Assembly: GCF_009674685.1 (NCBI RefSeq)
Contig: NZ_WKJI01000001.1
Span: 1,364,001 to 1,428,000, forward strand
DNA from: Pedobacter puniceum
Lineage (GTDB): Bacteria; Bacteroidota; Bacteroidia; Sphingobacteriales; Sphingobacteriaceae
Length of the DNA: 64,000 bases
Direction: 5' to 3'
The translations under genes were made by a program, and so were the position numbers. The notes beneath the pieces are model-generated. The model was not told the DNA's origin. It ran no database searches and saw only the letters and a program-made list of their open reading frames with translations. The number at the start of each line of letters is the position of its first letter. Position 1 is the stretch's first letter. Of the stretch, positions 26,344 to 60,861 are shown one piece after another.

Positions 26344-26506
26344 TTAGTAAACCGAAAAAACAAATACTTATATAAAAAGGCTGAAAATAAAATACGAATG
26401 GTACGCTTCAGCTATAATTGGTTATTCAATTATAAGCAAAATATTTTTAAAATGTTAAATACACACTTATTTATTTTTTTATTTTTTTTTGAGATTAAAA
26501 TATTGT

Positions 26507-26536
26507 CCGGAAGATGCGCCTTAGTACATCTTTCGG
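26507..26536 (-). terminator. Hairpin after the PL4 lyase gene
   Basis: Read on the minus strand, CCGAAAGATG pairs with CATCTTCCGG over a 10-base loop (one wobble pair), 13 bp after the PL4 stop. No T tract follows directly, so it may act as a 3' stabiliser or a weak terminator. The rest of the 206-bp gap to the sigma gene shows nothing clear. Confidence 0.45.
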
Positions 26537-26549
26537 AAGAAAAATCATA

Positions 26550-29500
26550 TTACTGTATAAATAACTTTCTAACTTCGATAAAATCGTTAGCCTTTATTTG
26601 TAATAAATAGTTACCTGGGGCTAGTTGTTTATCAAAGTTTATTTGATAATTACCTGTAGAATTTTTGTTAAAGGACTGTTTTAAAACCACACTTCCTGTT
26701 AAACTAGTTAAGGTTAATTCTACTTGATGGTAAGAAATGTCTTTAAGCGTGATATTAATTTTTTCTGTTACTGGGTTAGGATAAACATGAACTTTTACAT
26801 CATCATATAAAGAAAAATTAACCACTTTAATACCTTTCTCTGATGATAATCCATTAAAATCGTATTGTATAAGTTTGTAATAGTTTAGGCCGTTAAGCGG
26901 ATTTTTATCTGTAAAATTATAATCGCTTCTAGCATGAGTATTACCTTTTCCATCAATAAAACCTATGCTAGTGAAATGGATACCATCAGCAGATCTTAGA
27001 ATTTCGAACTTCTGGTTGTTTTGTTCTGAAGAAGTTGCCCAGCTTAATATAGTCGTGTTACTTTGAGCTTTTGCGTTAAAGCTGATTAACTCGATAGGTA
27101 AAGTCATGCTAGCATCGCCTTCTAAACTGATGTAATCATACATGATATGGTTACCATAACTAGATGTTGAAGGCATTAATAAGGTAATAGTATTTGCCCC
27201 TACCCTAAGTTTATTCATAGGAATATCTACCACTTGTATGGAGTATTTAGCATGGTTAGACTGTCTTAAAAAAGCATTACCACCACCCAAAGGAGGGTAA
27301 AAATTAATAGGTGTTGAGGATTCGTTATTTACATAAATCCATTGTTGTGCATGGTCTGAGCTGGCATAAGCAATGGTTAATTTGGCATTCCCTGTTGTTG
27401 GGATACCACTTGGTAAATTAAAATTTAAACGCCATTTCCATGATGATTCTACCGTACCATCGGCCTTAAAATAAGGCGAATGTACATAAGGCAGAGCTGT
27501 TGACCAGTTTTTGCTGGCTACATTATACTCTATAGGATTACTAAATGTTACTCTAAATTTATCTTGTACATAGCCTTCTGAATAATCAAAATCTCCAAAT
27601 TTATATTCTGCAGCGGTACGGTCTGGCACACCTATTTCCCAAATTAAACTTCCATTTGTTCTAGGTATTGTCCAAACGATATTACCTAAATTTGTTGTGT
27701 TATTAGCCGTTACGGTGATATTAGCTACTGAAAATTCTCCGGTAACACCATTACTAAAAGCAAATAAGGTATAAGTTCCGGGTCTTACATGTTTAATATC
27801 AAAATTACCAGAGGCATCGGTTTTAACCCAATATTGGTAATTTTCTTCTTCAAATTGCCATTGTCCGTTTGAGTCGTCACTTAATTGGGTTACTCCTATC
27901 CAAGCATTAGCACCAGTAATTTGTGGTTTATAGGGGTCATTAATAGAGAAATTACCTATTATATTTCCTCTTTGGTTTGCCAAAGGATATTGCGGGGTAT
28001 TGGTAAGCCAAGCATATGGCCATTGTGCTTTTTCAATGGCAGCTCTTGCTTTAGCATCTGCCCAGTTTAGCTCGGCAGTAGATTTATTAGAAGTATACAA
28101 CAAATAAGGCCCATAGATTTTAGACCAAGCTTCGCCTTGTTTTATCACAAAACCTTTAGAGTTATAATGTACCCCGTTCATACAAATATGGATAATACCA
28201 GCAGCGGCATTTAAATCGTGATGGGTTGGACCGCTGTTAAAATACTCGTGACTACCAAATACAGCCCAGCTACCAATGTTATTAACATCGCTACCAAAAC
28301 CATAAGCGGGTAATTCTATCAATGGCTCGCTATACTGATATTTACCATCGTATTTACCTGCTCTAACGCCAGCGTTTATTTTTATAATTTCTGCAATACC
28401 TGTTGGTGTTGCCGTAGCATAATCGGCAACAGAAGGCATTTTCCATTTCTTTACATCATTAACAAAAATGTTTTCTGCTAAATAATCTGTCCCGTTATTG
28501 GCAATCCACATCACTTGTCGCCACGAGCCTAAATCAAAATCCGGATAGCTAGCTTTATGTTCTAGAATAGAATACGTATATAAACCGCTATCGTTCTTTT
28601 TAAGTACGTAATGTATATCGGCATCACAAGGGGTAACATTGCTACCAGGAGTGTATGGTCTTTTAAAGGATACATCAATATAATCTGCAGTTTCTTCTTT
28701 TACAGAAAAAGTAGCTCCAAATATAGTTTCAAAACCTTTGGAAGAAGTAAAATCATAATAAGCACTTATTTTATTTCCTGTTTGCGCTATGGTTTCTACG
28801 CCATTTACTTTCATAGATAAGATATTGCTTGTTCTCTTATCTATTTTAGCCTCCACAATACCATTATTTAAAATGATGTAACTGGTATATTCTCTTAAAA
28901 GACTGTTTGGATTTTGAGGGATGGTAGCTGTTGTTCTAGTACCATCAAAAGTTACAGATAAAGTTTTCCCTGCAGGAAAAGTTATTTTACCATTGGTAAT
29001 ATGGGTTTGTAAAGCAGCAACTTTATCTCCGGTAACAATTAATCGGCCTATGCCGCTAATAAAGATAGAACCATTGGCACCAATGTTAACATTACCTGTA
29101 ACATCTACCGTACCGTCGTTAATATTTAAAATACCTATTGGGTTTGCTGTACCCGTAGCAACTTCTAAATTAGTACCTACATAAATGGTACCGCCTGTTA
29201 CATTTGCAGTAGCATTTCCTCCAACGCCGTTTCCTACATAGAAAATATACCTACTATACATAGCACCACCATTTACTTGTAAAGTAGCTGTGGCCTCTTT
29301 ACCCAAGAAAACATTATTTCTAATATTAAAGCTAGCAGGTGCATTTAAAGTAATATTGCCATTTAAATAAGAACTATTCCATGGAATAAGATTTCCATTT
29401 ATGGTAATATTAGCACTAGCAGTAGTATTAAAATAGTTTGGTCTGTAACTTACATTGCTTGCGTTACCACCACTTTGTATTGGGTTATTTGGATTTCCTG

Positions 29501-29690
29501 CACCAATAACCATGGTATGAGCTTGCATATCTGCAAAGTTGATGGCTGTATTAGACCAGTTATTAGCGTTATAAAAATCGGTACTGGTGCCACCAACCCA
29601 ATTGTATGTAATTTGCGCAAACAGCTTAACGTTAATAAACAAGAAAATGAATGTGTAAAATAGTGTAGTTTTTGTAAAGTTTAATTTCAT
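26550..29690 (-). CDS. PL4 rhamnogalacturonan lyase with N-terminal beta-helix repeats and type IX sorting domain
   Basis: The 1046-aa protein begins with a signal peptide (residues 7-25, LFAQ). Residues about 30-260 are Asn/Gly/Thr-rich repeats (NWSNTAINF, GGTIYVGTNLEV, GILNINDGTVDVTGNVNIGANGS) resembling beta-helix passenger repeats. About 275-570 is the PL4 catalytic domain, followed by a fibronectin-like domain (GNIIGNFSINDP on, near 577) and a galactose-binding-like domain (DFDYSEGYVQDKF on, near 690-860), the normal PL4 order. A second fibronectin-like segment and a sorting domain (VYPNPVTEKINI near 967 to ...VRKLFIQ) end it. It would cleave the Rha-GalA backbone by beta-elimination at the cell surface. 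It is a single-gene unit; the GntR-like gene ends 171 bp upstream. Confidence 0.85.
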   Translation of the reverse strand: MKLNFTKTTLFYTFIFLFINVKLFAQITYNWVGGTSTDFYNANNWSNTAINFADMQAHTMVIGAGNPNNPIQSGGNASNVSYRPNYFNTTASANITINGNLIPWNSSYLNGNITLNAPASFNIRNNVFLGKEATATLQVNGGAMYSRYIFYVGNGVGGNATANVTGGTIYVGTNLEVATGTANPIGILNINDGTVDVTGNVNIGANGSIFISGIGRLIVTGDKVAALQTHITNGKITFPAGKTLSVTFDGTRTTATIPQNPNSLLREYTSYIILNNGIVEAKIDKRTSNILSMKVNGVETIAQTGNKISAYYDFTSSKGFETIFGATFSVKEETADYIDVSFKRPYTPGSNVTPCDADIHYVLKKNDSGLYTYSILEHKASYPDFDLGSWRQVMWIANNGTDYLAENIFVNDVKKWKMPSVADYATATPTGIAEIIKINAGVRAGKYDGKYQYSEPLIELPAYGFGSDVNNIGSWAVFGSHEYFNSGPTHHDLNAAAGIIHICMNGVHYNSKGFVIKQGEAWSKIYGPYLLYTSNKSTAELNWADAKARAAIEKAQWPYAWLTNTPQYPLANQRGNIIGNFSINDPYKPQITGANAWIGVTQLSDDSNGQWQFEEENYQYWVKTDASGNFDIKHVRPGTYTLFAFSNGVTGEFSVANITVTANNTTNLGNIVWTIPRTNGSLIWEIGVPDRTAAEYKFGDFDYSEGYVQDKFRVTFSNPIEYNVASKNWSTALPYVHSPYFKADGTVESSWKWRLNFNLPSGIPTTGNAKLTIAYASSDHAQQWIYVNNESSTPINFYPPLGGGNAFLRQSNHAKYSIQVVDIPMNKLRVGANTITLLMPSTSSYGNHIMYDYISLEGDASMTLPIELISFNAKAQSNTTILSWATSSEQNNQKFEILRSADGIHFTSIGFIDGKGNTHARSDYNFTDKNPLNGLNYYKLIQYDFNGLSSEKGIKVVNFSLYDDVKVHVYPNPVTEKINITLKDISYHQVELTLTSLTGSVVLKQSFNKNSTGNYQINFDKQLAPGNYLLQIKANDFIEVRKLFIQ

Positions 29691-29861
29691 AAATGGTTAT
29701 TGGTTAAATTTTATAAACCATTTTAAAATATAACACACCGAGTTCTTAAGTATAGAGATACTAAGTTTTAGTGTTTAGGTTTTTGGTTTATAAAGGCTTA
29801 TCTAATGTAAAAACTACATTTTTCAACCGCATCCTGCCCCATCATGATGAAAGAGAAAGAA
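29691..29861 (-). promoter_or_regulatory. Upstream region of the PL4 gene with a degenerate CAGGA repeat
   Basis: Toward the gene the sequence reads CATGATGGGGCAGGATGCGG (29827-29846), CATGA then CAGGA at a 10-bp step. TAGTTTTT (7 of 8 to TAnnTTTG) begins 30 bases after the first repeat. It resembles the CAGGA-N5-CAGG sites of other units, but spacing differs by some 7 bases, so support is weaker. Confidence 0.4.
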
Positions 29862-30893
29862 TTATAAAGAAGGCCTAAGGGTTACATAAAATGGAACAGC
29901 ATGATGTTCTTGCTTATTGGTTTTAATCATTTCGGCGGTTAAATTTCCCATCAATTTAAAATCTGTAGATATGGTGGTAATACCATTTAACAAGAGTTTT
30001 TTTAGAGGTGTTTCATTGTAGGATATTAAACCTACATCTTTACCTAATACTAAATCTAAAGAAATGATATTCTCTATTAAAGTAACCAAATCATCCTCCA
30101 TTAAATTGATATAAACTTCGCCAGCATTTATAGGCTCTTGTTTTATATCGCTAACAATAACATGATTAAAAGCATATTGCTGACAAAATCTTATAAAGCC
30201 ATGAACTATTTCTTTTGGGAAGTAACTCTTTTTAGGAAATAATAATTTAATAGTATTGTATTTACTTAATTGCTCATTTAACTCGGTTAAAGCATTATAA
30301 ATATCCTTCTCAAAATTCTCATAAACAGCACCATAAGAGCCTTCTACGCCATATACCTTCTTATCCAGTAAAATCAATTTCTCTTTAGGTAACTGATTGA
30401 TGATTTCATAAGCATTCTCGCCACCTTCTAAAAAATGGGGAGCTATTACGAAATGAGAATAATCTGTTCTTCTGTTTAGGATGAGCTTTTTAAAGATGGT
30501 AAAATCATTATTATAGATATAAAAATCTACGGCAGCATCTGGACCTAAAGCGGCTACAAATGCATCGTAAATCATTTTCTTATGTACCGAAAGCTTATTA
30601 AAAAGCAAAAATACCTTTATTTTCTTTTTAAAATTTGTATTACCAACATAATAACCTCTACCAGGAACAGATACTATGACGCCCAACTTTTTCAGGTATT
30701 TATAACCTCTTTCTGTGGTATCTCTTGATATTTCTAAGACATAACTCAACTCATTAATAGAAGGCAAAACATCATCTTTTTTTAGATGGTTGTTTTCTAT
30801 AGCTGAAATGATAGCGTTGCTTAACTGTAAGTATTTTGGCGTTGCAGAGTATTCATCTACTTGAAGAAATTTATATAAATCGGTTGGTTTCAT
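29862..30893 (-). CDS. GntR-family regulator with a periplasmic-binding-like sensor domain
   Basis: The 343-aa protein has an N-terminal winged helix of GntR type (ISAIENNHLKKDDVLPSINELSYVLEISRDTTERGYKYLKKLGVI, about 28-78, followed by VPGRGYYVG) and a C-terminal domain (about 92-343, with SHFVIAPHF, KLILLDKKV and DVGLISYNETPLKKLL) like LacI/ribose-binding domains. It has no signal and acts in the cytoplasm, probably binding a sugar such as rhamnose or a galacturonate product. It is the last gene of the GH105-GH31-rhaM-GH43 operon, starting 2 bp after the GH43 stop, so it may autoregulate that operon. Ligand and targets are not shown by sequence. Confidence 0.85.
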   Translation of the reverse strand: MKPTDLYKFLQVDEYSATPKYLQLSNAIISAIENNHLKKDDVLPSINELSYVLEISRDTTERGYKYLKKLGVIVSVPGRGYYVGNTNFKKKIKVFLLFNKLSVHKKMIYDAFVAALGPDAAVDFYIYNNDFTIFKKLILNRRTDYSHFVIAPHFLEGGENAYEIINQLPKEKLILLDKKVYGVEGSYGAVYENFEKDIYNALTELNEQLSKYNTIKLLFPKKSYFPKEIVHGFIRFCQQYAFNHVIVSDIKQEPINAGEVYINLMEDDLVTLIENIISLDLVLGKDVGLISYNETPLKKLLLNGITTISTDFKLMGNLTAEMIKTNKQEHHAVPFYVTLRPSL

Positions 30894-30895
30894 AC

Positions 30896-31837: not shown

Positions 31838-31841
31838 ATGC

Positions 31842-32150
31842 TTAATCAAGATGAAAAACCTGTTTTAAAGGAATACTTACCGGAGAATTATCCGGATTGG
31901 TTTCCATAATATCTGCCATGTAAGCCCACCATTTTTGTACTATTGCAGTTGAGCCTAAATCTTGCGATGATGAACCCGATTGTTGTTGTACAGCAAATAG
32001 CGTATTAGTGGCTTCTTCTAAAAATATCGAGTAATCACTTATCCCGTTATCTTTTAAGAGCTGAGCTAATTCTGGCCAAATCTCATCATGTCTTTTCTTA
32101 TACTCTGCTTCGCAGCCAGGTTTTAATTTCATTGCAAATGCTATTTTCAT
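31842..32150 (-). CDS. rhaM: L-rhamnose mutarotase
   Basis: The 102-aa protein is a typical Rha[29 protein letters not shown] with the catalytic His near 21, then [18 protein letters not shown] and [14 protein letters not shown]. It interconverts alpha and beta anomers of L-rhamnose in the cytoplasm (no signal), feeding rhamnose catabolism. It sits between the GH31 and GH43 genes in one operon, strong evidence that the locus releases rhamnose, as expected for rhamnogalacturonan. Confidence 0.92.
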
Positions 32151-32172
32151 ATGATTTAGCTAAGCTTAATTT

Positions 32173-34581
32173 TTATTGAATAACTACCTCAAAAGCGCCA
32201 CTGGCTTCTAGCATAACATAGTTTTTGCTGTTATCATACTTCCAGCTGCTTAGTGGTAATTCTTGATTATTGACTTTAACTGATGTTGGTTTTTGTTTAA
32301 AACCATAAACCTGTAATTGAAATTGCTGAGCTATTGGCTGATAATCGCCTACAGGCTTAGCTACAATAATTTTTACAGCATCTTTTAACTCTTCTGAAGT
32401 GATTTTGGTTGTAGCAAATTTTCCTTTTTGATAGTCTAAAGTTTTACCATCATCCTCATACAAATTAAATTCTGATTTCCCTGATGGATAAACCGCTAGC
32501 GTGATATTTTTAACAGCTTGCTCATCGGTATATTTCATATCTTGTTGCATAGGGATAATGCCTCCACCTCTTACAAAAAGCGGAATGGTATCTAAAGGAG
32601 CAACCACGTGTATGTACTGAGAACCAGAAATTTTCTTACCTGTCCAGTAGTTATACCAATTGCCTTTCGGCAGATATAAAGAGCGTGTTTTGGCAGCTTT
32701 AATAGTTATCGGGCAAACCATTAAATTATCCCCAAGAAGATATTGATCATCTATGTTATAAGTATTAACATCATCCTGATGGTTTAATACCAAAGCCCTC
32801 ATCATAGGGATACCCGTTTGATGATTTTGATACATACTTGCGTACAGATAGGGCAATAAACGGTAGCGTAACTTATCGTAATTTCTAAAATTACGAAGTG
32901 CATCTTCGCCATAGTTCCAAGGTTCTTTATAACCCGGATGATCCATCCCAAAAACCAAAGCAACCGGACTTAACATCCCAAATTGTACCCATCTGATATA
33001 CAATTCTGGATCTGCAGGGTGCTCAAAACCACCCATGCAATGTGCCCAATTACTCACTCCGGATAAACCGATATTTAAACCCGCTTTAATAACCGGAGCA
33101 AAATATTGCCACTCGCTAGGCCAATCTCCAGCAAAAATAAATGGATAGCGCTGTATGCCTGCATAACCTTCGCGGGTTTGGTTTAGGCCTCTTATTTTGT
33201 TTAACTCTTGAAACTTCTCGTAAGGAGCTTTTGCATAAGCTATAGGGAAAATGTTGTGTAAGCGTTCTGCTTCTTGCCCTGTTGGGCCAACCTTATCACT
33301 TTCGTTTGCTTTATGACCAAAGGCACTTCCCTCATCTGTTTTAAGAAACATGGCACCTTGTTTGGCTACACGCATAACGCCGTTTTCCCACCACCAATCG
33401 ACAGCTTTTTTATCAAAAAAGTTTACAAATTCGCCCGGCTTACCATCTTCTGGATAGGTAAAACCTTTTTTACGGGCTTGGTCTAAAAGGTTTAGTTTTT
33501 TAGCATTATCAAAACGCGGGCGTAGGTGTAAACCCACCATTTTATAATCCATCGCATAAATGCTATCAAACATGGCTTTAGGATTCTTGAAGGTCTCTCT
33601 CCACTCGAAAGTGGTAGCACCCTTACCACCATTTTCGCCAAATAAACGCCAGGTTGAATCTAACCAAATGATATCTGCAGGTATATTTTGCTGACGAAGT
33701 TTTTGTGCCAAAGCTATTACATATTGGGTGCTTGTCATTTCTTCATGCCCCCAAGTACCACCGCTATAAGTACCTACATGTAAGCCCAAAGCAAATTTAG
33801 GCATCAACGGTGCTTTACCTGTTATGCTGGTATAATCCTGAATTAAAGAAGGGAAACTAGGGCCATAGATGAAGTAATAATCTAACTCACCATTTTCTGG
33901 GGCAAAGCTGTATTGATTTGGATTGCTAGCACCCATATCCCAATTAGAAGCATAGGAAGTATGTAAATAAATACCATAACCTTTGGTACTCATGAAAAAA
34001 GTAACCGGGCAGTAATTGGCTTCTAAAACATTATAAGCACCAACTTCATGCGGTAAACCTTCGCCTCTACCCACATTTAACCTTAGCTTTTTACCCTTGC
34101 GGTCTAAAAAATCCATTCTTTCGCCAAAACCAAAAAAATGCTCGTTAGCTTGCATGGTTTTGGTAATGGTTTTTGCTTCGCCTTTTATTTGCGCTGGTAA
34201 AGCATCTTCATTAATAAGTAAACCTTTATGGTTATAAACTTTGATTAAAAATGGAGATTTCTGAATTTCTAGCTTTAAACTATCAGAATTAATGGTGATT
34301 TTGTTTTGATTTTCTACATGGTTAAACTGTACTGTAGACCAATTGTAATTATTAACCATGTAATTTTCTTGAGCTGCAAAAGCGCCATTAGCACTGTATC
34401 TTACTCTGAAAATTTTAGGCGAACAAAACTCTATTTTAATAGTAGCGCCGTTTTGTTGAAAGGTAAACTCGTTTCCCTTTTTTATAATAGTTTCTATTGC
34501 TCTCTCCTGAGACAGTACCGAAGTACTGCCCAGAAAGAAAACACTTAGAAAAATGATTAGAAAATTCTTTTTAATCAGCAT
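32173..34581 (-). CDS. GH31 alpha-glycosidase
   Basis: The 802-aa protein has a Sec signal (ending STSVLSQ, about 24) and the GH31 layout: N-terminal beta-sandwich, a barrel with ADIIWLDSTWRLF, the nucleophile region MFLKTDEGSAFG near 415 and the acid/base region GDWPSEWQYF near 484, then C-terminal beta domains. GH31 enzymes hydrolyse alpha-xylosidic, alpha-glucosidic or alpha-galactosidic bonds; which applies here cannot be told. It overlaps the GH105 stop by one base (TAATG) and is 22 bp upstream of rhaM, so it belongs to the GH105 operon. Confidence 0.88.
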   Translation of the reverse strand: MLIKKNFLIIFLSVFFLGSTSVLSQERAIETIIKKGNEFTFQQNGATIKIEFCSPKIFRVRYSANGAFAAQENYMVNNYNWSTVQFNHVENQNKITINSDSLKLEIQKSPFLIKVYNHKGLLINEDALPAQIKGEAKTITKTMQANEHFFGFGERMDFLDRKGKKLRLNVGRGEGLPHEVGAYNVLEANYCPVTFFMSTKGYGIYLHTSYASNWDMGASNPNQYSFAPENGELDYYFIYGPSFPSLIQDYTSITGKAPLMPKFALGLHVGTYSGGTWGHEEMTSTQYVIALAQKLRQQNIPADIIWLDSTWRLFGENGGKGATTFEWRETFKNPKAMFDSIYAMDYKMVGLHLRPRFDNAKKLNLLDQARKKGFTYPEDGKPGEFVNFFDKKAVDWWWENGVMRVAKQGAMFLKTDEGSAFGHKANESDKVGPTGQEAERLHNIFPIAYAKAPYEKFQELNKIRGLNQTREGYAGIQRYPFIFAGDWPSEWQYFAPVIKAGLNIGLSGVSNWAHCMGGFEHPADPELYIRWVQFGMLSPVALVFGMDHPGYKEPWNYGEDALRNFRNYDKLRYRLLPYLYASMYQNHQTGIPMMRALVLNHQDDVNTYNIDDQYLLGDNLMVCPITIKAAKTRSLYLPKGNWYNYWTGKKISGSQYIHVVAPLDTIPLFVRGGGIIPMQQDMKYTDEQAVKNITLAVYPSGKSEFNLYEDDGKTLDYQKGKFATTKITSEELKDAVKIIVAKPVGDYQPIAQQFQLQVYGFKQKPTSVKVNNQELPLSSWKYDNSKNYVMLEASGAFEVVIQ

Positions 34582-35723
34582 TATTTACCTCCAAGTTTAT
34601 ACATCTCGGCACCAGCCAAAAGAAAACATCCTAAGCCATAATCTTCAAAATCAGGCATGCTGGTATAGGTTACCGGCTGCCCATCTTTAGGCTCTTTGCC
34701 TGTACCTTGTACATATCCTAAAAATCCGTTTGGATGTACTGCTTTGGTTACCATGGCATTCCATGCTTTATTGATAACCGGTAAATAAGTTGCTTTGTCT
34801 AACAAACCGTTATTAATGCCATAGGCCATTCCGTAAACAAAAAGGGCTGTACCTGTAGTTTCTGGACCACCAAAATTATTTGGATCATTTAAACTCACAT
34901 TCCAAAAACCATCTTCTCTTTGCAAAGGCACTAAGGCTTTCATCATTTCTAAATAAGTCTTTAGGTATTCTTCACGATGAGGGCCATCTTTAGGCATAAT
35001 ATCTAAAACCCTAACCAAAGCTGCTACTACCCATCCGTTACCACGACTCCAATAGCAATCATCGCCATTAGGCTCTTTATAAGGCGGAACAAAATCTTTA
35101 TCTCTCCACCATAAACCTTCTTTAGCATTATACAAACCGCCACCTTCTACTTCTTTGGTGTGCATGTACATTTTATACATATACTCGAAATAAGCTGGAT
35201 TTTTCTCTAAAACACCTAGTTTAGCAAATACTGGCATTGCCATTTGAATAGCATCAATCCATGTCCAATCGTTTACTTTACCAGATGCCATCATTAAATC
35301 CATAGAGGCTTTAATATCTTTAATGCGCTCAGGTTTTTTATCGATATAATACAAATCAATATAAGTTTGACCGCATGCTTGATCATCCCCATTACGGGTT
35401 TTAATACCGTTTCTTAATCCCCATTTATGTTTTTCGCCCCATTCTACTGCATAATCATAATATTTTGGATTTTTATCTATCTGATAAAGCGCCATTAAAC
35501 CTTCATAATAAACCGCTCTAGTCCAGATATTACTTGGTCTTAAAACATTGGTAAAAATAGGCTTGTATGGGTCTGGCCATTTGTTCATGAAGTAAGCATT
35601 TGTAGAACGCATTACTTTTAGGATTTCTTCTTTTTGAGCTTTTCTTTGCTTTTGTGCAGCACAAGAAGAAAACACCATAACAGCCAAGCCGAGGATAAAA
35701 ATTTTTAATAGGGATTTAGACAT
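34581..35723 (-). CDS. GH105 unsaturated rhamnogalacturonyl hydrolase lipoprotein
   Basis: The 380-aa protein starts with a lipoprotein signal (MVFSSC, Cys21), then a helical (alpha/alpha)6 barrel. WIDAIQMAMPVF (Asp157) matches the catalytic Asp of YteR/YesR-type GH105, and NGDDQACGQTYIDLYY (111-126) resembles the substrate-site region. It removes the unsaturated galacturonyl end left by PL4, PL9 and PL11 lyases. It heads the GH105-GH31-rhaM-GH43-GntR operon. A CAGGA direct repeat lies 149 bp upstream of its ATG, behind the terminator of the preceding GH2 operon. Confidence 0.88.
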   Translation of the reverse strand: MSKSLLKIFILGLAVMVFSSCAAQKQRKAQKEEILKVMRSTNAYFMNKWPDPYKPIFTNVLRPSNIWTRAVYYEGLMALYQIDKNPKYYDYAVEWGEKHKWGLRNGIKTRNGDDQACGQTYIDLYYIDKKPERIKDIKASMDLMMASGKVNDWTWIDAIQMAMPVFAKLGVLEKNPAYFEYMYKMYMHTKEVEGGGLYNAKEGLWWRDKDFVPPYKEPNGDDCYWSRGNGWVVAALVRVLDIMPKDGPHREEYLKTYLEMMKALVPLQREDGFWNVSLNDPNNFGGPETTGTALFVYGMAYGINNGLLDKATYLPVINKAWNAMVTKAVHPNGFLGYVQGTGKEPKDGQPVTYTSMPDFEDYGLGCFLLAGAEMYKLGGK

Positions 35724-36025
35724 GATTGTATATTTTATAATCGTTAATTATTGATTTGCACAAAAAATCATCAACTTTTAGTCTTTAAGAATAAAGGCCA
35801 ATAAAATTTAGCGACAAAATTGTATAACTGGTTTTCTCTGCGATGTTAAGGAAATATAAAATGGACAGCAACCTGCTGTGTCCTGTTTGATGGTAAAAAA
35901 ACTCGTTTTAAACCATAAAAACCTTGATAATTAAATTTCAAGGTTTTTATGATAGGTGTTTAAGGTTATTTTTTGGGAAAGGAACGAAAATTAATTTATG
36001 ATAACATCCTACAAAAAAATAAAAA
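35724..36025 (-). promoter_or_regulatory. Intergenic region with terminator, CAGGA operator and long leader of the GH105 operon
   Basis: From the GH2 stop this 302-bp gap holds the bidirectional terminator at 35915-35950, then the direct repeat CAGGACACAGCAGG at 35872-35885, itself followed by TTGCTGTCC, giving an extra GGACA/TGTCC inverted repeat. A -7-like TAACATCG begins 37 bases after the repeat start, and about 110 bases of untranslated leader follow. No gene is seen. Confidence 0.6.
35915..35950 (-). terminator. Intrinsic terminator after the PL11-to-GH2 operon
   Basis: A perfect 12-bp stem ATAAAAACCTTG and its complement (12-base loop) has T-rich arms on both strands and lies 75 bp beyond the GH2 stop, directly before the CAGGA site. 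Confidence 0.75.
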
Positions 36026-38920: not shown

Positions 38921-38929
38921 AGTTCATGA

Positions 38930-40528: not shown

Positions 40529-40570
40529 GACGATAAGAGGTTTACGATATGGATACCCTAATTTAGTTTA

Positions 40571-41353: not shown

Positions 41354-41355
41354 GA

Positions 41356-42123: not shown

Positions 42124-42126
42124 ACG

Positions 42127-44660: not shown

Positions 44661-44681
44661 AGAATAAAAAAGTTAATGATT

Positions 44682-46547: not shown

Positions 46548-46580
46548 GTAGTTTTTTTATAAAGTATAATTGGTAGCTCC

Positions 46581-46623
46581 AAAATATAAATTTAAAAGGA
46601 TGCAGGCATCATGCACCATCCTG
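46581..46623 (-). promoter_or_regulatory. Operator and -7 element of the PL11 operon
   Basis: On the minus strand CAGGATGGTG and CATGATGCCT are repeats at 10-bp steps starting at 46623, then GCATCC. The same stretch has an inverted AGGATG/CATCCT (46597-46602, 46617-46622). TATATTTT then GG at 46581-46588 is one base off a -7; it starts 35 bases after the repeat start. The leader to the PL11 ATG is short. Confidence 0.55.
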
Positions 46624-46650
46624 AAAAGCTCTTATTAATTATTTACTTAT

Positions 46651-46665
46651 CAGGATGAAACAGGA
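46651..46665 (+). promoter_or_regulatory. CAGGA direct-repeat operator of the PL9 gene
   Basis: CAGGATGAAACAGGA is two perfect CAGGA half-sites 10 bp apart. A -7-like ACAATTTG begins 36 bases after the first base (46687-46694), matching the spacing at other units. The ATG at 46665 lies inside the repeat, which argues that translation begins at 46719 instead. Confidence 0.6.
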
Positions 46666-46718
46666 TGATTAATCTCTTGATTATTGACAATTTGCTTCAA
46701 CCAATTGTTAAATTTCTC

Positions 46719-48347: not shown

Positions 48348-48356
48348 TTTAAAATA

Positions 48357-48394
48357 GTGAAGGTTTTATTAAAACATCTTTTTAAAACCTTCAC
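48357..48394 (+). terminator. Shared hairpin between convergent PL9 and 708-aa genes
   Basis: GTGAAGGTTTTA pairs perfectly with TAAAACCTTCAC over 12 bp (14-base loop). The right arm lies in the last codons of the minus-strand 708-aa gene. T-rich tracts are weak, but the place between two stops 21 bp apart suggests bidirectional termination. Confidence 0.6.
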
Positions 48395-51920: not shown

Positions 51921-51942
51921 TATTAAAGTTTAAATTCTGCTA

Positions 51943-54789: not shown

Positions 54790-54801
54790 CTTGATGAAAT
54801 G

Positions 54802-57654
54802 TTAGGGCTTAAAATGAGTTAAAGGAATTAAAGAAACCTGACTGGTTAAACCAGAAGGCTTTGGTTGCCAATTTTTAGCAGTAAATAAACCATCGGCACC
54901 GCGGTTTTCTGGCAACCTTGATGACATATTGATATTGTAGAATATCTTATAATTCTGGTTGGTTTTATCCATCCATGATGCTCTGTTTGCCATACCATTA
55001 GCCACCTGAATTTCTAAAACATTCTTTTTCTGGATTTTAGCCGATGGAATTTCTAACTTATAATCTGGACCTATTAAAGTAGCCAATAACTCGCCGTTAA
55101 GGGTAACTTTAGCGCTTTGCTCTACCTTGCCTAAGTCTAGCAAATAAAAATCGGCTTTAGCTTTTGGCTGTTTAAATGAAGTGGTATAAGCGGCTGTTCC
55201 AGAGAATTTTTCGTAATCTGCACCGTTTACGGTCCAAGATTTTAATTCTTTTAAAACTAAAGGCTGAGGTAAAACAGGTCCGCCTTTAATGAACGTTACT
55301 TTCCACTCGTTACCTAGCGGGATAGCTTTTCCTGCTGCTTTAGCATAAGGATAGCTAGTTTCATTAATCTCATTATCAAAAGTTTGTAGGATGCAGCTTT
55401 CGCCTTTCTTCAACTGTAAATAAACTTGTGTGTTTTTATTATCCTGACGGATAGCTGCGTAACCTTTCTCGCCAGTCATCGGGTTAAATAATGCTACGCT
55501 ATTGGCTTTGGTATTGATATTTACCCAAGTATCTACAGCTGCTGCACTTTCATTTAAAATGAAATAATATTTACCACCTTCGTAAGACCTACGTATGGTT
55601 GATAAACCTTGAGCCTTCATGGTTTCTGCTTTTATCTGCGCAGCATCCATTAAAGCAGGTATTTCATCGCTTATTATAATGCTTCCTTTACCCACCAAGG
55701 CTCTCTTAAATTTACCGTTTTGCTGAAATTGAAGTAAACCCAAAGCATCTTTAAAAGCCTTTTGTCTTTCTGCTAAGTTTGCTAAGCCCGGAACATCTTG
55801 TGGTAAGCTTTTGTAAAATGTAATATTAGCGCCAGCATCGGCAAGTTTTAACAATTGCTGAATGGTTTCTAAAGGCATAAACTCGGCAGCAGGCACTAAA
55901 ATAGTTTTATAGCTTACATCGGCCGTTTTAATTTGGTTGTTAGCAACGCTTGTAGCTAATATTTGCTTATCTGAAATATAATCAAAGGCATAACCGCTTT
56001 TATTTAAGCTGGTAGCAACATGTTCAAAAGGTGTATTTTTAAAGCCATGTTCTATACCATCATAATGTCTGATGATAGCCTTTTCTCTTTCTGCATAAGA
56101 ATCTGCCATAGGCAAATACAAGAGAATATCATTATCTGCTTTTCCTTTTTGTAAGAAAGATTGAGAACGAGCCACATAGTTGTTTAAAGCCGAAAAATCA
56201 TCCCAAAAACTATTGTTTGGCGTAAAATGAACAGCTGCATAAAATATCCACCCCGGCCAAGCAGCATCTTTTGGAGTATAATTAGCACCATGATAAAAAT
56301 TATGGTTGATACCACCAAGTAGAAATACATCTAAAGCTTTTTTAACATCGCTAAGACTAGACAAGAAATGGTCGTTTTCCCATGTTGCCGCTTCTGATGA
56401 GGATAATAATTTACCCGTTACATGTGCCGCAGATGAAGCAAATTTTACTCTTAAAATATCTGTTCCTTCTGCTTCAGGGATATCTGTTGCAGCATATAAA
56501 TCTAAAATATTAGCTGGCGAACCATGTGCTTGATTACGGATAAGTTTACCTTTTCCTTGCGCCCATTTATGCCAAGCTTCTGTATAATTTTCTAGCAAAA
56601 GATCTGATATGGTTTGACGATAATCTATCAAAACTCTGGTTGCTTGCAGTTTATCATCTGTAGCACCAAAAAGAGCTGGAAGAAAATTCCTTAAATCATA
56701 ACCTCTTCTGGTTTTAAACTCGGTAAGGAAATCTGGTGTCCAACTGGCTTCGCCAAAAGCATCATCAACCTCGTAAGAATCATTAAAAAATGCTCTCAGA
56801 TAAGATAAATCATAACCGTTAAAGGCTTTATCAAAATAGCTTAAATAATTATTGGTTGCTTTTAAAGAAAAATGGTCTATGGCATAACCCTCGCCTCCGG
56901 GGCCGGCTCTTTCAACCATTTTACCATGTAAACCTTGGAAAAGTGCATATAAAGTCCAGTTGCCTTTACCTTTTGGAGCCGTCCAGTTTAATTGCCCTTG
57001 TTGGTCTAGCTTATCGGTTAAATCTAAAATTTCTCCCTTGGTAGAGTAACCCATTAAAGCTTGAGCTTTAAGTTTTTTAGGATACCTCACCTGATCAAAA
57101 GCATGTAATTGCAGGTTTTCATTAGCCGTAATAGGTTCTTTTATTTTATCGATACTGATTTTCTCTCCCACAATTCTTAAAACAGTTTTTTGGTCGAAAA
57201 AAACAGGTGTATTTAATTTTTCGCCCTCTTTTAGGTTATAAGTTTGATGAGCAAAATATTTACTAGCGTCTTCATCTTTAACCCAAGGACCGCCAAATGG
57301 CCAGCCAGATGCTTGAGCCATATCTATACCTAAATCTAGCTTTTTGGCTGTTTTTAAGGTATAAGTTAGCATATCCATCCATTTTGGTGATGTGAAATTG
57401 ATAAACTTACTTTCTTGTCCTTTTACGCCATAAATTGGAGTAATTTCTAAACCACCTAAACCAGCTTTTTGGTATTGATTTAACATCCACGAAAGGTTGG
57501 CTGTATCTACAGCGCTACCCTCCCACCACCATCTTGTCCATGGTTTTGTTTGTTGGGTAATTTGTGGCCATGTTGGTTGGTTCTGCGCAAATAATGGAGA
57601 TAATGCGCCACTAAAAAATAAGGCTAAAGCAATTTTCTTGTATGTTTTTTTCAT
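54802..57654 (-). CDS. GH106 alpha-L-rhamnosidase
   Basis: The 950-aa protein has a signal peptide (FSGALSPLFAQ) and the GH106 N-terminus TWPQITQQTKPWTRWWWEGSAVDTANL with LEITPIYGVKG and ASGWPFGGPWV in the barrel. A C-terminal galactose-binding-like domain contains PKAKADFYLLDLGKVEQSAKVTLNGE and NGMANRASWMDK. GH106 enzymes hydrolyse alpha-L-rhamnose from rhamnogalacturonan ends. It heads the operon GH106-GH2-GH28-708 aa. A CAGGA-N5-CAGGA repeat lies 147 bp upstream of its ATG. Confidence 0.9.
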   Translation of the reverse strand: MKKTYKKIALALFFSGALSPLFAQNQPTWPQITQQTKPWTRWWWEGSAVDTANLSWMLNQYQKAGLGGLEITPIYGVKGQESKFINFTSPKWMDMLTYTLKTAKKLDLGIDMAQASGWPFGGPWVKDEDASKYFAHQTYNLKEGEKLNTPVFFDQKTVLRIVGEKISIDKIKEPITANENLQLHAFDQVRYPKKLKAQALMGYSTKGEILDLTDKLDQQGQLNWTAPKGKGNWTLYALFQGLHGKMVERAGPGGEGYAIDHFSLKATNNYLSYFDKAFNGYDLSYLRAFFNDSYEVDDAFGEASWTPDFLTEFKTRRGYDLRNFLPALFGATDDKLQATRVLIDYRQTISDLLLENYTEAWHKWAQGKGKLIRNQAHGSPANILDLYAATDIPEAEGTDILRVKFASSAAHVTGKLLSSSEAATWENDHFLSSLSDVKKALDVFLLGGINHNFYHGANYTPKDAAWPGWIFYAAVHFTPNNSFWDDFSALNNYVARSQSFLQKGKADNDILLYLPMADSYAEREKAIIRHYDGIEHGFKNTPFEHVATSLNKSGYAFDYISDKQILATSVANNQIKTADVSYKTILVPAAEFMPLETIQQLLKLADAGANITFYKSLPQDVPGLANLAERQKAFKDALGLLQFQQNGKFKRALVGKGSIIISDEIPALMDAAQIKAETMKAQGLSTIRRSYEGGKYYFILNESAAAVDTWVNINTKANSVALFNPMTGEKGYAAIRQDNKNTQVYLQLKKGESCILQTFDNEINETSYPYAKAAGKAIPLGNEWKVTFIKGGPVLPQPLVLKELKSWTVNGADYEKFSGTAAYTTSFKQPKAKADFYLLDLGKVEQSAKVTLNGELLATLIGPDYKLEIPSAKIQKKNVLEIQVANGMANRASWMDKTNQNYKIFYNINMSSRLPENRGADGLFTAKNWQPKPSGLTSQVSLIPLTHFKP

Positions 57655-57839
57655 AATCTAGTAATCGAAGCAGTTAAAACAGCGATATAAAAACGCTAAA
57701 GGTTTCATCATCAAGCTTGTGGCTTTACAAGCTTATTTAATGCTTTGATAATTGGTTAAAATCTATTTTTCTAAAATAGGCTATTTAAAACATTTACCTA
57801 TCCTGTTGTGTCCTGAAAAAAGAAATATTAGTTATTACA
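57655..57839 (-). promoter_or_regulatory. Operator, promoter and structured leader of the GH106 operon
   Basis: On the minus strand CAGGACACAACAGGA (57801-57815) is a direct repeat of CAGGA at 10 bp. TATTTTAG (57771-57778) starts 37 bases after the first base, close to TAnnTTTG. About 110 bases of leader hold a hairpin AAGCTTGT/ACAAGCTT (57713-57734). No T tract follows that hairpin. Confidence 0.6.
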
Positions 57840-60677
57840 CTAATTAGTTTCTGGCATTAAACCATAAGCTTTAGGATGCTCTTTTAGGCTTATTAAAACC
57901 CTATCAAACATAATTTCTGGGTCTAAGGCCATTATTTCTAATCGGTGTTTACCAGGTTTTAAATCATCAAAAACAAAAGTTTTAACAGCATTGTTACGCA
58001 ATACATTTTCTTTCCACTCGGTACTTCTTCCTTGCACCTCAAAATTTTTAATTTGCCATGCGCCACCATCAATTCTAACAGCATATTTTAAACTAAACAG
58101 ATTATTTAATGGATGCGTGGGGATGGTAAAAACATCAACTTTGGCTTTCGCCGATGTGGTATTCATAAAATTGTAAGATAAAATCATACTGTCTTGGGCA
58201 GTAACTAAATGATGGTAAAAATTACTTTTGATAACGCTACCCGCATAACCTAAACCATCTATTTTCTCCCATTTAAAGCTGTTGGTTTCTCTTTTAGAAG
58301 TATAATTTACCGCGTAGATAGAAATAAACCCATTTTGCTCAGTAAAAGTATCTTTTACTTTAGGTTGTGGATGACAAACTAATTGAAGCGTTTTTACACC
58401 CAAATTGGTTTGCAGTTTTAGATATGCTACTTGTCTTTCTTGCTTTAACTGTGCAACATCTGGCTTAAACCAAATTCTTATTTCTTTAGTTGATGATGAA
58501 AGGTTTCCTGTAGCTTGAGATACCTTAAGCCACTTTGGGATTTCTAAAAATTGCCATGATAAAGTGACAGCCTGTTTCAAGAAGATATCTAAGAAAGTAG
58601 AATCTGATGCTTTACTATATAGAATAGGAAAACTTATGGTATCGGCTTGATGGGTTGGTGCTGTACCTTCAACATGAAGCCCCCACGCTTCTGAACTTGT
58701 TGTGTTAAGTGTAGTTTTTGATTTTGGCAAATCAAAAACTGGTAAACCGCGTGGTTGCGCATGCATCATGCCTTTCCATTTACCTGCGCTTAAAGAATCG
58801 TTATAAAATTTGGTGAGTTGGTGGATGTTATTAAAAGCTTTAGCAACAGAATCTTGATAAGATATAGCACTTAATCTGCCTTGTTGTTGATATAAAACGG
58901 CTTTATCATGATATAAGAATTTCTTATTCATTTCTGATGCAGCTAAAACCGGGTAGCTAATCAATTGGAAATAGGCGTCTTGAAGATGAGCAGGGATGTT
59001 TTTTTTAAGCTGCAAAACATCATGTACCAATTGCTGATATTGCTTTATTCTTTTTTGTCCTTCATCGCCATAAGCAAAATGATTGTATGCTGTTAGCTGA
59101 GTTGGCGTTGTGGGTTCTGTTTGGCTCCAGCCCATATATTCTGGCTTACGCTCAAAAGCCAATTGATAATATTTTTGTAGGATAGGATTTAGCTTTAGGG
59201 CAACATTGGCATTAAAAATCTGCTGGTACCATTGTTTTAAATGATTTTGTACATAAACTTGCTGATGAAATGGTGTAATATCATAAGCCATATCTAAAAA
59301 CAATTGTGTTTGATACTCGGCCGGTTTAATATCGCCAACATTTAATATCCAAATACTTTTAGCTTCATTACGGTAAGCTTTAAGCATTTCTTGATGAATT
59401 AAAGCAGGCGGAGTTGTACATAACCACAGATAATCATGCGGCCTACCCCAATAAGAAACATGATAGTAAACACCAGCACCACCTTTTCTCTTATTTTCAT
59501 CAGGATTACCTAGTCTTCTGATGTATCCGTAATTATCATCTGGCCAAACTAGGTTTACGTCATCCGGGACAGGCAAACCCTCATCATAAATATCTAAAAC
59601 CTCTTTATAAAGTGTTAAAGCTTGCGGAATAGCTTTTATATCTTTTTTTAAAGTATTTTTAAGCATATTCCTTTGAGCGGTAAATACATCACCTAAAACC
59701 TTAATGGCTTCTTTGTTATTCTTAATGCCCTCCATCCCACTATCATGTACGCCTCTTATTCCAAGGCTATAAATTGCGTTAATAGAAGTTGTTTCCTTAA
59801 TTCTTTTTTGCCAATAATCATTAATATTAAATGAATTATCAACATAATTAAAAGCACCCATGGCGTTTTTATCCCATTCGTCTACATTATTTCTGAGCAT
59901 GGGTTCTGCATGTGAAGAGCCAATGATTATTTCATATTGCTTAGCAATTTTTAAATTCTCAGGAATACTAAAAAAAGCTTTTGTTCCCGGATGCATGGCT
60001 GGCCAAATGGTATTTGCTTTAAGGCGTAGCAAAAGCTCGAAAATTTTAGCGTAGCTATTAGGTCCAATATTTTTTAAATTTTTATCGATGTTTTGCGCTG
60101 CCCAAGGCCTTAAGCCCCAGTCTTCATCGTTTAAGAAAATACCTCGGTATTTTACAGACGGCGTTTTAGAAATGGTATCCTTTATAGAAACACTTAATTG
60201 CTTTTTCTTTTGCGGGGTAACATCTGCCCAGTAATACCAAGGATGAATGCCTATCTTTTCAGAAATATGAAAAACACCATAAGCTAAACCTCTTGCATCG
60301 CTGCCGGTAATGATGAGTGCATCTTTAATTTTAGATGTTGGATTTTTTAACCTTTTGATGGCAAATATTTCAAACTGATTTTCGATTTCTTGGGGATAAT
60401 AATTTCTAAAGGCTTTAGCCTGAGCGTTTTTAACCTGGCCCAAAAGGATAACATTTCCTTTAGCCTGTTTGAGATGCTTATAAATGGGAGGTTTATAACC
60501 ACATACTGCTTCTATATCTTTAGCTAATAGGTTTGCCACAACAGCATCTAAAGTTGAATCTTTAGAATTACAAACTATACTTACTTGATTTTTAACACTA
60601 TATAAATCAAAATCTTGTGCTTTGATATAAAAACATAACACTGTAAGAATAAGAGATAAGAAATATTTTTTTGCCAT
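57840..60677 (-). CDS. GH115 alpha-glucuronidase
   Basis: The 945-aa protein starts at MAKKYFLSLILTVLCFYIKAQ, a signal peptide. GH115 features are GLAYGVFHISEKIGIHPWYYWADV, RGIFLNDEDWGLRPWAAQNI near 175, GVHDSGMEGIKNN, VWPDDNYGYIRRLG, GGAGVYYHVSYWGRPHDYLWL and a C-terminal domain near 800-945. The family removes terminal alpha-1,2-linked glucuronic acid from xylan or arabinogalactan. In a pectic locus, glucuronidated side chains or arabinogalactan are likely targets. The ATG at 60698 abuts a terminator tail, so 60677 is preferred. It is a single-gene unit between two CAGGA-bearing regions. Confidence 0.87.
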   Translation of the reverse strand: MAKKYFLSLILTVLCFYIKAQDFDLYSVKNQVSIVCNSKDSTLDAVVANLLAKDIEAVCGYKPPIYKHLKQAKGNVILLGQVKNAQAKAFRNYYPQEIENQFEIFAIKRLKNPTSKIKDALIITGSDARGLAYGVFHISEKIGIHPWYYWADVTPQKKKQLSVSIKDTISKTPSVKYRGIFLNDEDWGLRPWAAQNIDKNLKNIGPNSYAKIFELLLRLKANTIWPAMHPGTKAFFSIPENLKIAKQYEIIIGSSHAEPMLRNNVDEWDKNAMGAFNYVDNSFNINDYWQKRIKETTSINAIYSLGIRGVHDSGMEGIKNNKEAIKVLGDVFTAQRNMLKNTLKKDIKAIPQALTLYKEVLDIYDEGLPVPDDVNLVWPDDNYGYIRRLGNPDENKRKGGAGVYYHVSYWGRPHDYLWLCTTPPALIHQEMLKAYRNEAKSIWILNVGDIKPAEYQTQLFLDMAYDITPFHQQVYVQNHLKQWYQQIFNANVALKLNPILQKYYQLAFERKPEYMGWSQTEPTTPTQLTAYNHFAYGDEGQKRIKQYQQLVHDVLQLKKNIPAHLQDAYFQLISYPVLAASEMNKKFLYHDKAVLYQQQGRLSAISYQDSVAKAFNNIHQLTKFYNDSLSAGKWKGMMHAQPRGLPVFDLPKSKTTLNTTSSEAWGLHVEGTAPTHQADTISFPILYSKASDSTFLDIFLKQAVTLSWQFLEIPKWLKVSQATGNLSSSTKEIRIWFKPDVAQLKQERQVAYLKLQTNLGVKTLQLVCHPQPKVKDTFTEQNGFISIYAVNYTSKRETNSFKWEKIDGLGYAGSVIKSNFYHHLVTAQDSMILSYNFMNTTSAKAKVDVFTIPTHPLNNLFSLKYAVRIDGGAWQIKNFEVQGRSTEWKENVLRNNAVKTFVFDDLKPGKHRLEIMALDPEIMFDRVLISLKEHPKAYGLMPETN

Positions 60678-60700
60678 ATAGAAGTTGTAAATCATCATTT

Positions 60701-60754
60701 AAAAAAATAAAGGCCGCTTTAACAAAAACGACCTTTATTGGTGGCGGGAGCCAC
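60701..60754 (-). terminator. Terminator or attenuator hairpin in front of the GH115 gene
   Basis: Read on the minus strand GTGGC-N4-GCCAC (60741-60754) precedes AATAAAGGTCG/CGGCCTTTATT (60706-60739, 11-bp stem with one wobble), then a T tract. It ends 2 bp before ATG 60698. It could end susCD transcripts or attenuate the GH115 leader. Confidence 0.7.
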
Positions 60755-60814
60755 TCTTATTAAACCAATTTTAAATTATGCAAACGAGATAATATTGAAT
60801 TGCATAAGGAAACC

Positions 60815-60859
60815 CAAAACTAGCTTAATGAAACATCCTCTGCAACCTGTTGTGTCCTG
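60815..60859 (-). promoter_or_regulatory. CAGGA operator and perfect -7 element upstream of GH115
   Basis: CAGGACACAACAGG (60846-60859) starts 2 bp after the susD stop region on the minus strand. TAGTTTTG (60815-60822) matches TAnnTTTG exactly and starts 37 bases after the first C. Start of transcription near 60808 would give a leader that runs through the terminator. Confidence 0.6.
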
Positions 60860-60861
60860 TA

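Follow-up and report, generated by a model that had tools for sequence, protein, structure and literature searches.

The same short direct repeat stands in front of one transcription unit after another in a pectin-degradation locus of Pedobacter puniceum, which raises the question of what protein reads it and to what effect. The window analysed here is a stretch of 64,000 nucleotides (G000:C1:1364001-1428000; G, C and L numbers denote genomes, contigs and loci) from the 3.90-Mb genome of this bacterium. A sequence-only reading of the window had proposed a shared operator, CAGGA-N5-CAGG(A/T), before most units of the locus, had preferred an activator of the AraC-like or hybrid two-component system (HTCS) type as its reader, and had left the role of a GntR-family gene in the locus open. 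Our results point to this GntR protein. With a probability of roughly 0.7, the repeat would be the operator of the locus GntR, a protein of AraR type that is predicted to act as a cytoplasmic L-rhamnose regulator and activator in Sphingobacteriaceae and some other Bacteroidia.

A conserved direct repeat upstream of the transcription units

The window contains six 18-base sites, each composed of two CAKRAYR half-sites 10 bp apart (Table 1). Exact CAGGA-N5-CAGGW matches number four against 0.08 expected from dinucleotide shuffles, and ten matches with one mismatch compare with 3.3 expected. The whole genome holds nine exact sites, i.e. the four of the window, three within 28 kb to its right and two distant ones, and one match to the backward pattern; with two mismatches allowed, the 18-base form has 20 genomic sites versus two for the backward pattern. 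In a 122.5-kb region comprising the window and its right flank, where the window numbering is carried on past 64,000, nine full 18-base patterns were found against one mirror-image match and a mean of 1.07 in 30 shufflings by 1-kb blocks. Eight of the nine, all except that of PL9, are followed by a -7 box (T[AT]NN[AT]TNG, at least 4/5) starting 37 bases after the first C (+37), a combination that occurs 0.07 times per shuffle.

All eight intergenic gaps longer than 100 bp between 29691 and 91329, i.e. up to 27 kb past the window end, hold a site facing the next gene (gaps were delimited by open reading frames (ORFs) of 110 aa or more and by rhaM). These gaps contain ten sites, with one site per direction in the two divergent gaps; the site at 80269 departs from the pattern at one base. 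At 60869, a shifted match of 14/15 overlaps with the operator of GH115. No site was found in the locus gaps of 76 and 79 bp, or in the gaps that border this stretch (26344-26549 and 95768-96150). The proposed shared operator is thus borne out. Its four exact sites had been located to within one base and the degenerate PL11 site exists, whereas the PL4 site had been placed about 5 bases off. A palindrome was rejected as the general form, as an outer inverted repeat is visible by eye in the GH105 site only. The site is a real, conserved operator-promoter module, probably bound by GntR. The 562-aa protein behind one of the distant sites (Table 1) was considered as PL4-like on a 38% BLAST match, but Pfam gives a secretion tail alone.

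Fixed spacing to the -7 box

A perfect Bacteroidetes -7 box begins exactly 37 bases after the first C in PL4, GH105, PL11, GH106 and GH115, which sharpens the 35-38 bases estimated earlier for all but the weak PL9 box. For a wider view, 150 relatives were compared, 91 of them in the family of the window. The strict pattern CAGGAYRNNNCAGGWTGC occurs at 114 sites in 41 of the 150 genomes (that of P. puniceum included), with one backward match; the -7 box played no part in choosing these sites. Seventy-one of them, flanks included, entered a column analysis, and 71/71 cleared the redundancy filter. Past the site and its first flanking base, the only columns above 0.25 bit are those of the -7 box, with T at +37 (89%), A at +38 (76%), T or A at +41 (58% and 34%), T at +42 (96%) and G at +44 (75%). 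A full -7 box starts at +37 in 39 of these sites, at +36 in one and at +38 in three. For the non-redundant sites of the rhamnose-type variant described below, the corresponding counts are 32 of 53 at +37 and none at either neighbouring position. No column from +18 to +36 rises above 0.25 bit in the 71 strict sites, in agreement with the earlier remark that a good -33 element is lacking.

With TAnnTTTG numbered as -12 to -5 (PMC9723704), the operator extends from about -49 to -32 with its centre at -40.5, covering the place of the missing -33 element. The 71 and 53 sites are direct repeats with a 10-bp period and not palindromes, and they keep the fixed position over the -35/-33 region that a class II activator site requires. 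A site over the missing -33 fits an activator, and a class II activator would need just such a rigid spacing, absence of a -33 signal and centre near -40.5. In this respect the data support the earlier reading of a direct repeat on one face of the DNA, beside a weak promoter and placed like an activator site. With this numbering, transcription is predicted to start near 29797 (-), 35836 (-), 46574 (-), 46700 (+), 57766 (-) and 60810 (-).

At some promoters, two to three tandem copies of the 18-base site occur (L248:4593-4677 in G125, L055 in G028 and G067:C1:504282-504321), and of the three copies in G125, two are followed at +37 by a -7 box that scores 4/5 or better. Downstream of the -7 box, CCAA was found between +45 and +100 in 44 of the 71 strict sites; before the box, between +18 and +37 (a shorter stretch), it was found in two. 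No claim is made for a leader element AACCAA, because the mirror AACCA (38) is as common as ACCAA (34).

Architecture of the GntR protein

The GntR protein of the locus (P0001, 343 aa) has an N-terminal GntR winged helix (PF00392, 29.2 bits versus a cut-off of 27), which is present in 42/42 orthologues of the A1 set at E<=1. A C-terminal LacI/periplasmic-binding-like domain (Peripla_BP_3) is likewise found in 42/42 orthologues at E<=1, with a best value of 3.4e-8; P0001 alone scores 0.0056, below the curated cut-off. The A1 profile matches the winged helix-turn-helix chain of the arabinose repressor, 4egy, at 6.3e-8 and, weakly and in the C-terminal part, LacI-type chains at 0.004-0.08. The combination of winged helix and LacI-type sensor indicates an AraR-type architecture. 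Among NCBIfam models the winged helix scored best against PdxR (8.6e-13), although at 48 bits this is far under the cut-off of 320, and Pfam gave no match to the class I aminotransferase domain of MocR proteins in P0001. The GH105 unit ends with GntR, whose gene would therefore be autoregulated if the unit is one operon, as the gene spacing suggests.

Co-occurrence of the repeat and GntR

With GntR scored as a P0001 match of at least 50% identity, the 91 family genomes divide into 36 with both the CAGGA motif and GntR, two with the motif only (G040 and G065), 11 with GntR only and 42 with neither (Fisher p 4.7e-13). When the rhamnose-type motif is added, the counts become 43, 3, 4 and 41 (Fisher p 1.2e-17), i.e. 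43 of the 46 motif-bearing family genomes have a GntR orthologue. None of the family genomes with at least two strict sites is without GntR. The -7 boxes of the motif-only genomes G040 and G070 score 2/5 and 3/5, which amounts to none, and that of G065 scores 4/5. PL11 (PF21348, E<=1e-60) was considered as a confounder. Motif and GntR are present in all 17 family genomes with PL11; however, the motif also occurs in 21 further genomes of the family that have no PL11, and hence tracks GntR rather than PL11.

A class-wide survey covered 395 genomes, with a GntR threshold of E<=1e-60. The relaxed pattern CAGGAYRNNNCAGGWTRS was present in 67 genomes (backward control 16) and GntR in 37. Outside the family, the motif occurs in 15 of 29 GntR-positive versus 47 of 351 GntR-negative genomes (p 4e-6). 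The context of the sites was inspected for 26 of the 29 sites of GntR-positive genomes from other families, for five extra sites of the same-family genomes G024 and G048 (GntR 43-44%), and for 25 of the 51 sites of GntR-negative genomes; the strict sites of G121 and G291 and the second G111 site (L179; -7 box 5/5) were left out. By our own ORF caller, 26 of the 31 sites in GntR-positive context are intergenic, and 24 have a -7 box at +37; excluding G024 and G048, these figures are 23/26 and 19/26. Conversely, one of the 25 sites in GntR-negative context has a -7 box and none is intergenic. Comparison of the 26 with the 25 sites gave p values of 2.8e-7 for the -7 box and 1.5e-11 for intergenic position.

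The rhamnose operon carries a variant of the repeat

In the genomes with GntR only, the GntR gene mostly adjoins rhaT-rhaEW-rhaA-rhaK(-lutABC), and the rhaT promoter has a variant repeat, CATRACAG-N2-CATRACAG, likewise with a -7 box at +37. This variant explains the GntR-only genomes, seven of 11 of which contain a rhamnose-type site. The rhamnose-type pattern CATRAYNGTNCATRACAG gave 34 sites in 29 of the 150 genomes and one backward match; GntR is present in 28 of the 29, the exception being G070. In P. puniceum itself, the 71% GntR paralogue adjoins the rhaT-rhaEW-rhaA-rhaK operon, with a CATGATGGTACATGACAG site. A further rhamnose-type match, G000:C1:1279755, was taken as chance because it has no -7 box (2/5).

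A survey of named species gave 80 GntR loci, the best 80 of 517 matching stretches, from Pedobacter, Mucilaginibacter, Parapedobacter, Hufsiella, Pelobium, Arcticibacter, Sphingobacterium, Chitinophagaceae and others. Apart from GntR, which the selection itself puts in all 80, rhamnose genes are the commonest neighbours; they occur in 45 of the 80, with RhaEW, RhaA and RhaK in 44 each, RhaT in 42 and RhaM in 17; SusC is found in 12, a Pfam-confirmed alpha-L-rhamnosidase in 14 and a second rhamnosidase in 11. RhaT (PF06379) and RhaM (PF05336) were confirmed by Pfam on examples. The RhaA, RhaK, RhaEW and Lut labels are putative, with partial Pfam support (RhaA below cut-off, Lut unscanned). A site with a -7 box precedes 37 of the 42 rhaT genes, and the 80 loci hold 49 sites in all versus one in the mirror control (1.26 Mb). 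Among the 35 gene families found in at least five of these loci GntR is the sole regulator, and a Pfam scan of the 21 unlabelled neighbour families gave no regulator (two were without a match). The candidate rhamnose regulator is hence linked to rhamnose catabolic genes, and its putative sites are placed before them. Enrichment in related loci at the same spacing, put forward earlier as a check, was therefore found in the 150 relatives, the 395 genomes and the 80 named loci.

The two forms of the repeat are connected by intermediates. Intermediate rhaT sites are CATGATGGTACAGGACAG and CAGGATGGTACAGGACAG, the latter from Pedobacter sp. KBW06 and P. steynii, and some rhaT sites are hybrids or wholly of the CAGGA type. 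In a different family, CAGGA-type sites occur upstream of a Pfam-confirmed rhaT (L249; G125, GntR 43% identity) and, in G125, also beside rhaEW. From these hybrid and CAGGA-type rhaT sites, the two forms look like one motif.

Proposed mechanism and alternatives

The sites, their fixed spacing, the association with GntR and the architecture shared with rhaT are observations; from them we infer that GntR binds, that it activates instead of repressing, and what its effector and dimer mode would be. Two GntR monomers would occupy the two tandem 8-bp half-sites, 10 bp apart on one face of the DNA, which read CAGGWTGC in pectin loci and CATRACAG at the rhamnose operon, with hybrids in between. Such binding would place the protein where the -33 element is missing, at about -49 to -32 with a centre near -40.5. 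Once it has bound rhamnose or one of the catabolites of rhamnose, the protein may recruit sigma-ABfr RNA polymerase to the TAnnTTnG -7 box in class II style and so switch on rhaT-rhaEW-rhaA-rhaK, the rhamnogalacturonan genes and its own GH105-GH31-rhaM-GH43-GntR unit. Rhamnose or a catabolite is suggested as effector by the content of the regulon, i.e. rhamnose transport, isomerase, kinase, aldolase, mutarotase and rhamnogalacturonan enzymes. We lean modestly towards the full version of this scheme, in which an AraR-type GntR protein would act in class II-like fashion at sigma-ABfr promoters through a 10-bp repeat that replaces the -33 element, and its regulon would join rhamnose and rhamnogalacturonan utilization. 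The same modest preference extends to a half-site that varies among targets, from CATRACAG to CAGGWTGC, at constant geometry.

GntR could instead bind the repeat as a repressor whose operator overlaps the -33 element and which is released by rhamnose or a catabolite. In this unlikely but arguable case, the spacing would be set from a -33 TTG hidden in CAGGTTGC. Repression is the usual mode of GntR proteins, and T at +14 in 79% of the 71 strict sites, where the pattern allows A or T, places a TTG about 20 bp before the -7 box. However, a repressor needs no one-base precision unless the -33 TTG lies in its operator. The CATRACAG half-site is without TTG, and yet the full -7 box stands at +37 in 32 of the 53 rhamnose-type sites with none displaced by a base, which argues against repression; many sites of other families (CAGGATAG) likewise have no TTG. 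That an AraC-type or HTCS activator encoded elsewhere reads the repeat, with GntR as a frequent neighbour, is improbable. In Bacteroides, rhamnogalacturonan loci are assigned to HTCS and rhamnose genes to an AraC-type RhaR, but HTCS sites are direct repeats averaging 21 bp apart and RhaR sites show a 21-bp periodicity (PMC3878776, PMC3870299) versus 10 bp here, so that the preference of the sequence-only reading for these families was not upheld. Moreover, the motif sits at the rhaT operon adjoining GntR, and no second regulator family recurs in the 80 GntR loci (a genome-by-genome AraC/HTCS survey was not made). No HTCS or AraC gene was seen among the Pfam-scanned genes of the locus (not every ORF was scanned).

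A DeoR-family RhaR would account for the period, as DeoR-type RhaR motifs elsewhere among bacteria consist of direct repeats with a 10-11 bp period (PMC3870299), and DeoR-family proteins occur in 64 of the 150 relatives. Still, DeoR (PF00455, E<=1e-10) was not found in the motif- and GntR-bearing genomes G001 (six strict sites), G012 and G034, which contradicts such a reader unless their DeoR is very divergent and makes it a very remote candidate. Chance or base composition would explain the isolated in-ORF matches of GntR-negative genomes, but it has a negligible probability in view of the shuffle, mirror and backward-pattern controls, the fixed -7 spacing and the occupation of all eight larger gaps.

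Several points weigh against GntR as reader and activator. GntR proteins mostly repress, as said, and they generally bind palindromes (PMC5320631, PMC4494728). The -7 box of PL9 at +37, CAATTTGC, scores 3/5. Because P. puniceum has GntR paralogues of 71% and 51% identity (Table 1), a copy other than that of the locus may read the pectin sites, and an unlinked regulator with an identical distribution may be the reader. Although no GntR was found at E<=1e-30 in the 99% complete genome G065, it contains a single good-looking site, L171:7358 (-); this site stands with its 4/5 -7 box upstream of an 890-aa gene and is the one convincing exception of the family. GntR-positive G004, G010, G031 and G085 have neither strict motif, and a strict site is absent from 14 of the 29 GntR-positive genomes outside the family. 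G024 and G048 were scored as GntR-negative in the family counts, yet each encodes a homologue of 43-44% identity that has CAGGATAG-type sites in its vicinity. Forward matches in 47 of 351 GntR-negative genomes exceed the backward-control rate (16/395); those examined all lie in ORFs. Finally, no comparable 10-bp repeat with a -7 box was found at 15 loci of 33-40% GntR paralogues (L212-L226), so that these loci gave no evidence of co-variation between regulator and site. The scan for it required a 10-bp repeat of any sequence (7/8 identical), a gene start no more than 400 bp away and a -7 box at +37, and also took in L227-L231 and L143 (46-52% identity). It returned two unconvincing matches (L218, L228), no new half-site and, in L231 of G003, one genuine site of the rhamnose type that lies before lutA and 2-3 kb from the 52% GntR; it neither helps nor refutes GntR as reader.

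Further features of the locus

Table 1. Operators, exact repeat matches and selected genes (window numbering unless a contig is given)
Feature	Position	Strand	Site or annotation	-7 box	Exact CAGGA-N5-CAGGW match
Operator of PL4	29829-29846	-	CATGATGGGGCAGGATGC, hybrid CATGA/CAGGA half-sites	TACATTAG, 29802-29809	
Operator of GH105-GH31-rhaM-GH43-GntR unit	35868-35885	-	CAGGACACAGCAGGTTGC	TAACATCG, 35841-35848	35871-35885 (-)
Operator of PL11 (and genes down to GH2)	46606-46623	-	CAGGATGGTGCATGATGC	TATTTTGG, 46579-46586	
Operator of PL9	46651-46668	+	CAGGATGAAACAGGATGA	weak, CAATTTGC at +37, 46688-46695	46651-46665 (+)
Operator of GH106-GH2-GH28-708 aa unit	57798-57815	-	CAGGACACAACAGGATAG	TATTTTAG, 57771-57778	57801-57815 (-)
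Operator of GH115	60842-60859	-	CAGGACACAACAGGTTGC	TAGTTTTG, 60815-60822	60845-60859 (-)
Distant exact site	C1:1288213 (L012:10213)		upstream of second PL11 gene	4/5 at +37, by eye	C1:1288213
Distant exact site	C7:11055 (L013:10069, C7:11069)		upstream of secreted 562-aa protein	4/5 at +37, by eye	C7:11055
PL4 rhamnogalacturonan lyase	26550-29690	-	Pfam		
GntR-family regulator, 343 aa (P0001)	29862-30893	-	proposed site reader; last gene of GH105 unit		
L-rhamnose mutarotase rhaM	31842-32150	-	PF05336, 6.4e-32; inside GH105-to-GntR unit		
GH105 (Glyco_hydro_88)	34581-35723	-	Pfam; opens GntR unit		
PL11 rhamnogalacturonan lyase	44682-46547	-	Pfam		
PL9 (Pel9A-like)	46665-48347	+	Pfam		
GH106 alpha-L-rhamnosidase	54802-57654	-	Pfam		
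GH115	57840-60698	-	Pfam		
GntR paralogue	G000:C3:152201-153226		71%		
GntR paralogue	G000:C8:18400-19419		51%		

Pfam also identified GH43, GH31, GH2, a sulfatase, two SGNH esterases, a second GH43 and GH28 in the locus. The genes scanned beyond PL9 are a 708-aa protein without Pfam match, GH28, GH2, GH106, GH115 and SusD; for a SusC-like gene cut by the window end, the part within the window gave no Pfam match. The right flank encodes Fasciclin-domain proteins, TonB receptors (SusC-like), SusD proteins, an SGNH esterase, GH95, GH97, GH35, a BNR_4 protein and GH2. On the other side, positions 1-26343 of the window resemble a mobile element, with two RteC, topoisomerase, multicopper oxidase, AcrB-type efflux and P-type ATPase genes; this part ends at a lone sigma-70-type gene of the size of extracytoplasmic function (ECF) factors (25738-26343), adjoining PL4.

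The listed ATG of PL9 overlaps the operator, and translation more probably starts from an in-frame ATG at position 46719 (+); this start would give a normal-looking signal peptide and falls downstream of the predicted transcription start. In the 5' leader of GH115 (60699-60810, -), a strong terminator-like hairpin with a T run lies immediately 5' of the ORF (60700-60808, minimum -31.3 kcal/mol, z -5.2). The hairpin may represent either an attenuator or the terminator of SusD, located 3' of the GH115 promoter. Two relatives have the operator upstream of ECF-type sigma genes on the minus strand (L098:2296 in G086 and L110:9792 in G088), which are followed by genes that look FecR-like by eye; this suggests a cascade in which the GntR regulator acts on ECF-run loci.

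Comparison with known systems

Regulation of polysaccharide loci in Bacteroidota is known mainly from gut Bacteroides, where HTCS, SusR and ECF systems sense outside the cytoplasm (PMC3878776). In Sphingobacteriaceae, a cytosolic regulator tied to a monosaccharide appears to run both a sugar pathway and polymer-degrading loci. This would provide a candidate rhamnose biosensor, a predicted regulon and a searchable motif of fixed promoter geometry; if true, an AraR-like GntR protein acts as activator on direct repeats. Neither the motif nor a GntR rhamnose regulator of Sphingobacteriaceae was described in the titles and abstract openings among the matches listed in the open-access literature.

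AraR of Bacillus subtilis and AraR-type GntR proteins share with P0001 the order of GntR winged helix and LacI-like sensor and a sugar-linked locus. AraR, however, is a repressor that binds a palindrome, unlike the 10-bp direct repeat at an activator position found here. The geometry recalls the pho box of PhoB (an 11-bp direct repeat) and class II CRP sites, where an activator covers the -35 region at a fixed distance from the -10 box; the protein families and the sigma factor are different. Within the GntR family, exceptions that bind direct repeats are TauR, GabR, NagQ, NanR and FarR (PMC4494728, PMC5320631), and MocR-type regulators often do so, several of them as activators (PMC5320631). 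The MocR-type activators TauR, GabR and PdxR are alike in winged helix and direct-repeat sites, and the TauR repeats CTGGACYTAA resemble CAGGAC by eye, but the locus GntR lacks their aminotransferase domain. The rhamnose regulators treated in PMC3870299 are of the AraC, DeoR and LacI families, the word "GntR" being absent from its main text; the DeoR-family RhaR described there serves the same pathway through 10-11 bp direct repeats, but belongs to a different protein family. HTCS_Rgu and the AraC-type RhaR of Bacteroides likewise respond to rhamnogalacturonan and rhamnose and use direct repeats, but with the longer period of about 21 bp and with separate regulators for polysaccharide and rhamnose (PMC3878776). 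FucR (BT1272) and ManR (BT2103) are GntR sugar regulators of Bacteroidota for fucose and mannose (PMC3878776). A GntR-family sugar regulator is a known type; what would be new is that such a protein uses direct repeats in the place of an activator site and couples rhamnose catabolism to rhamnogalacturonan loci.

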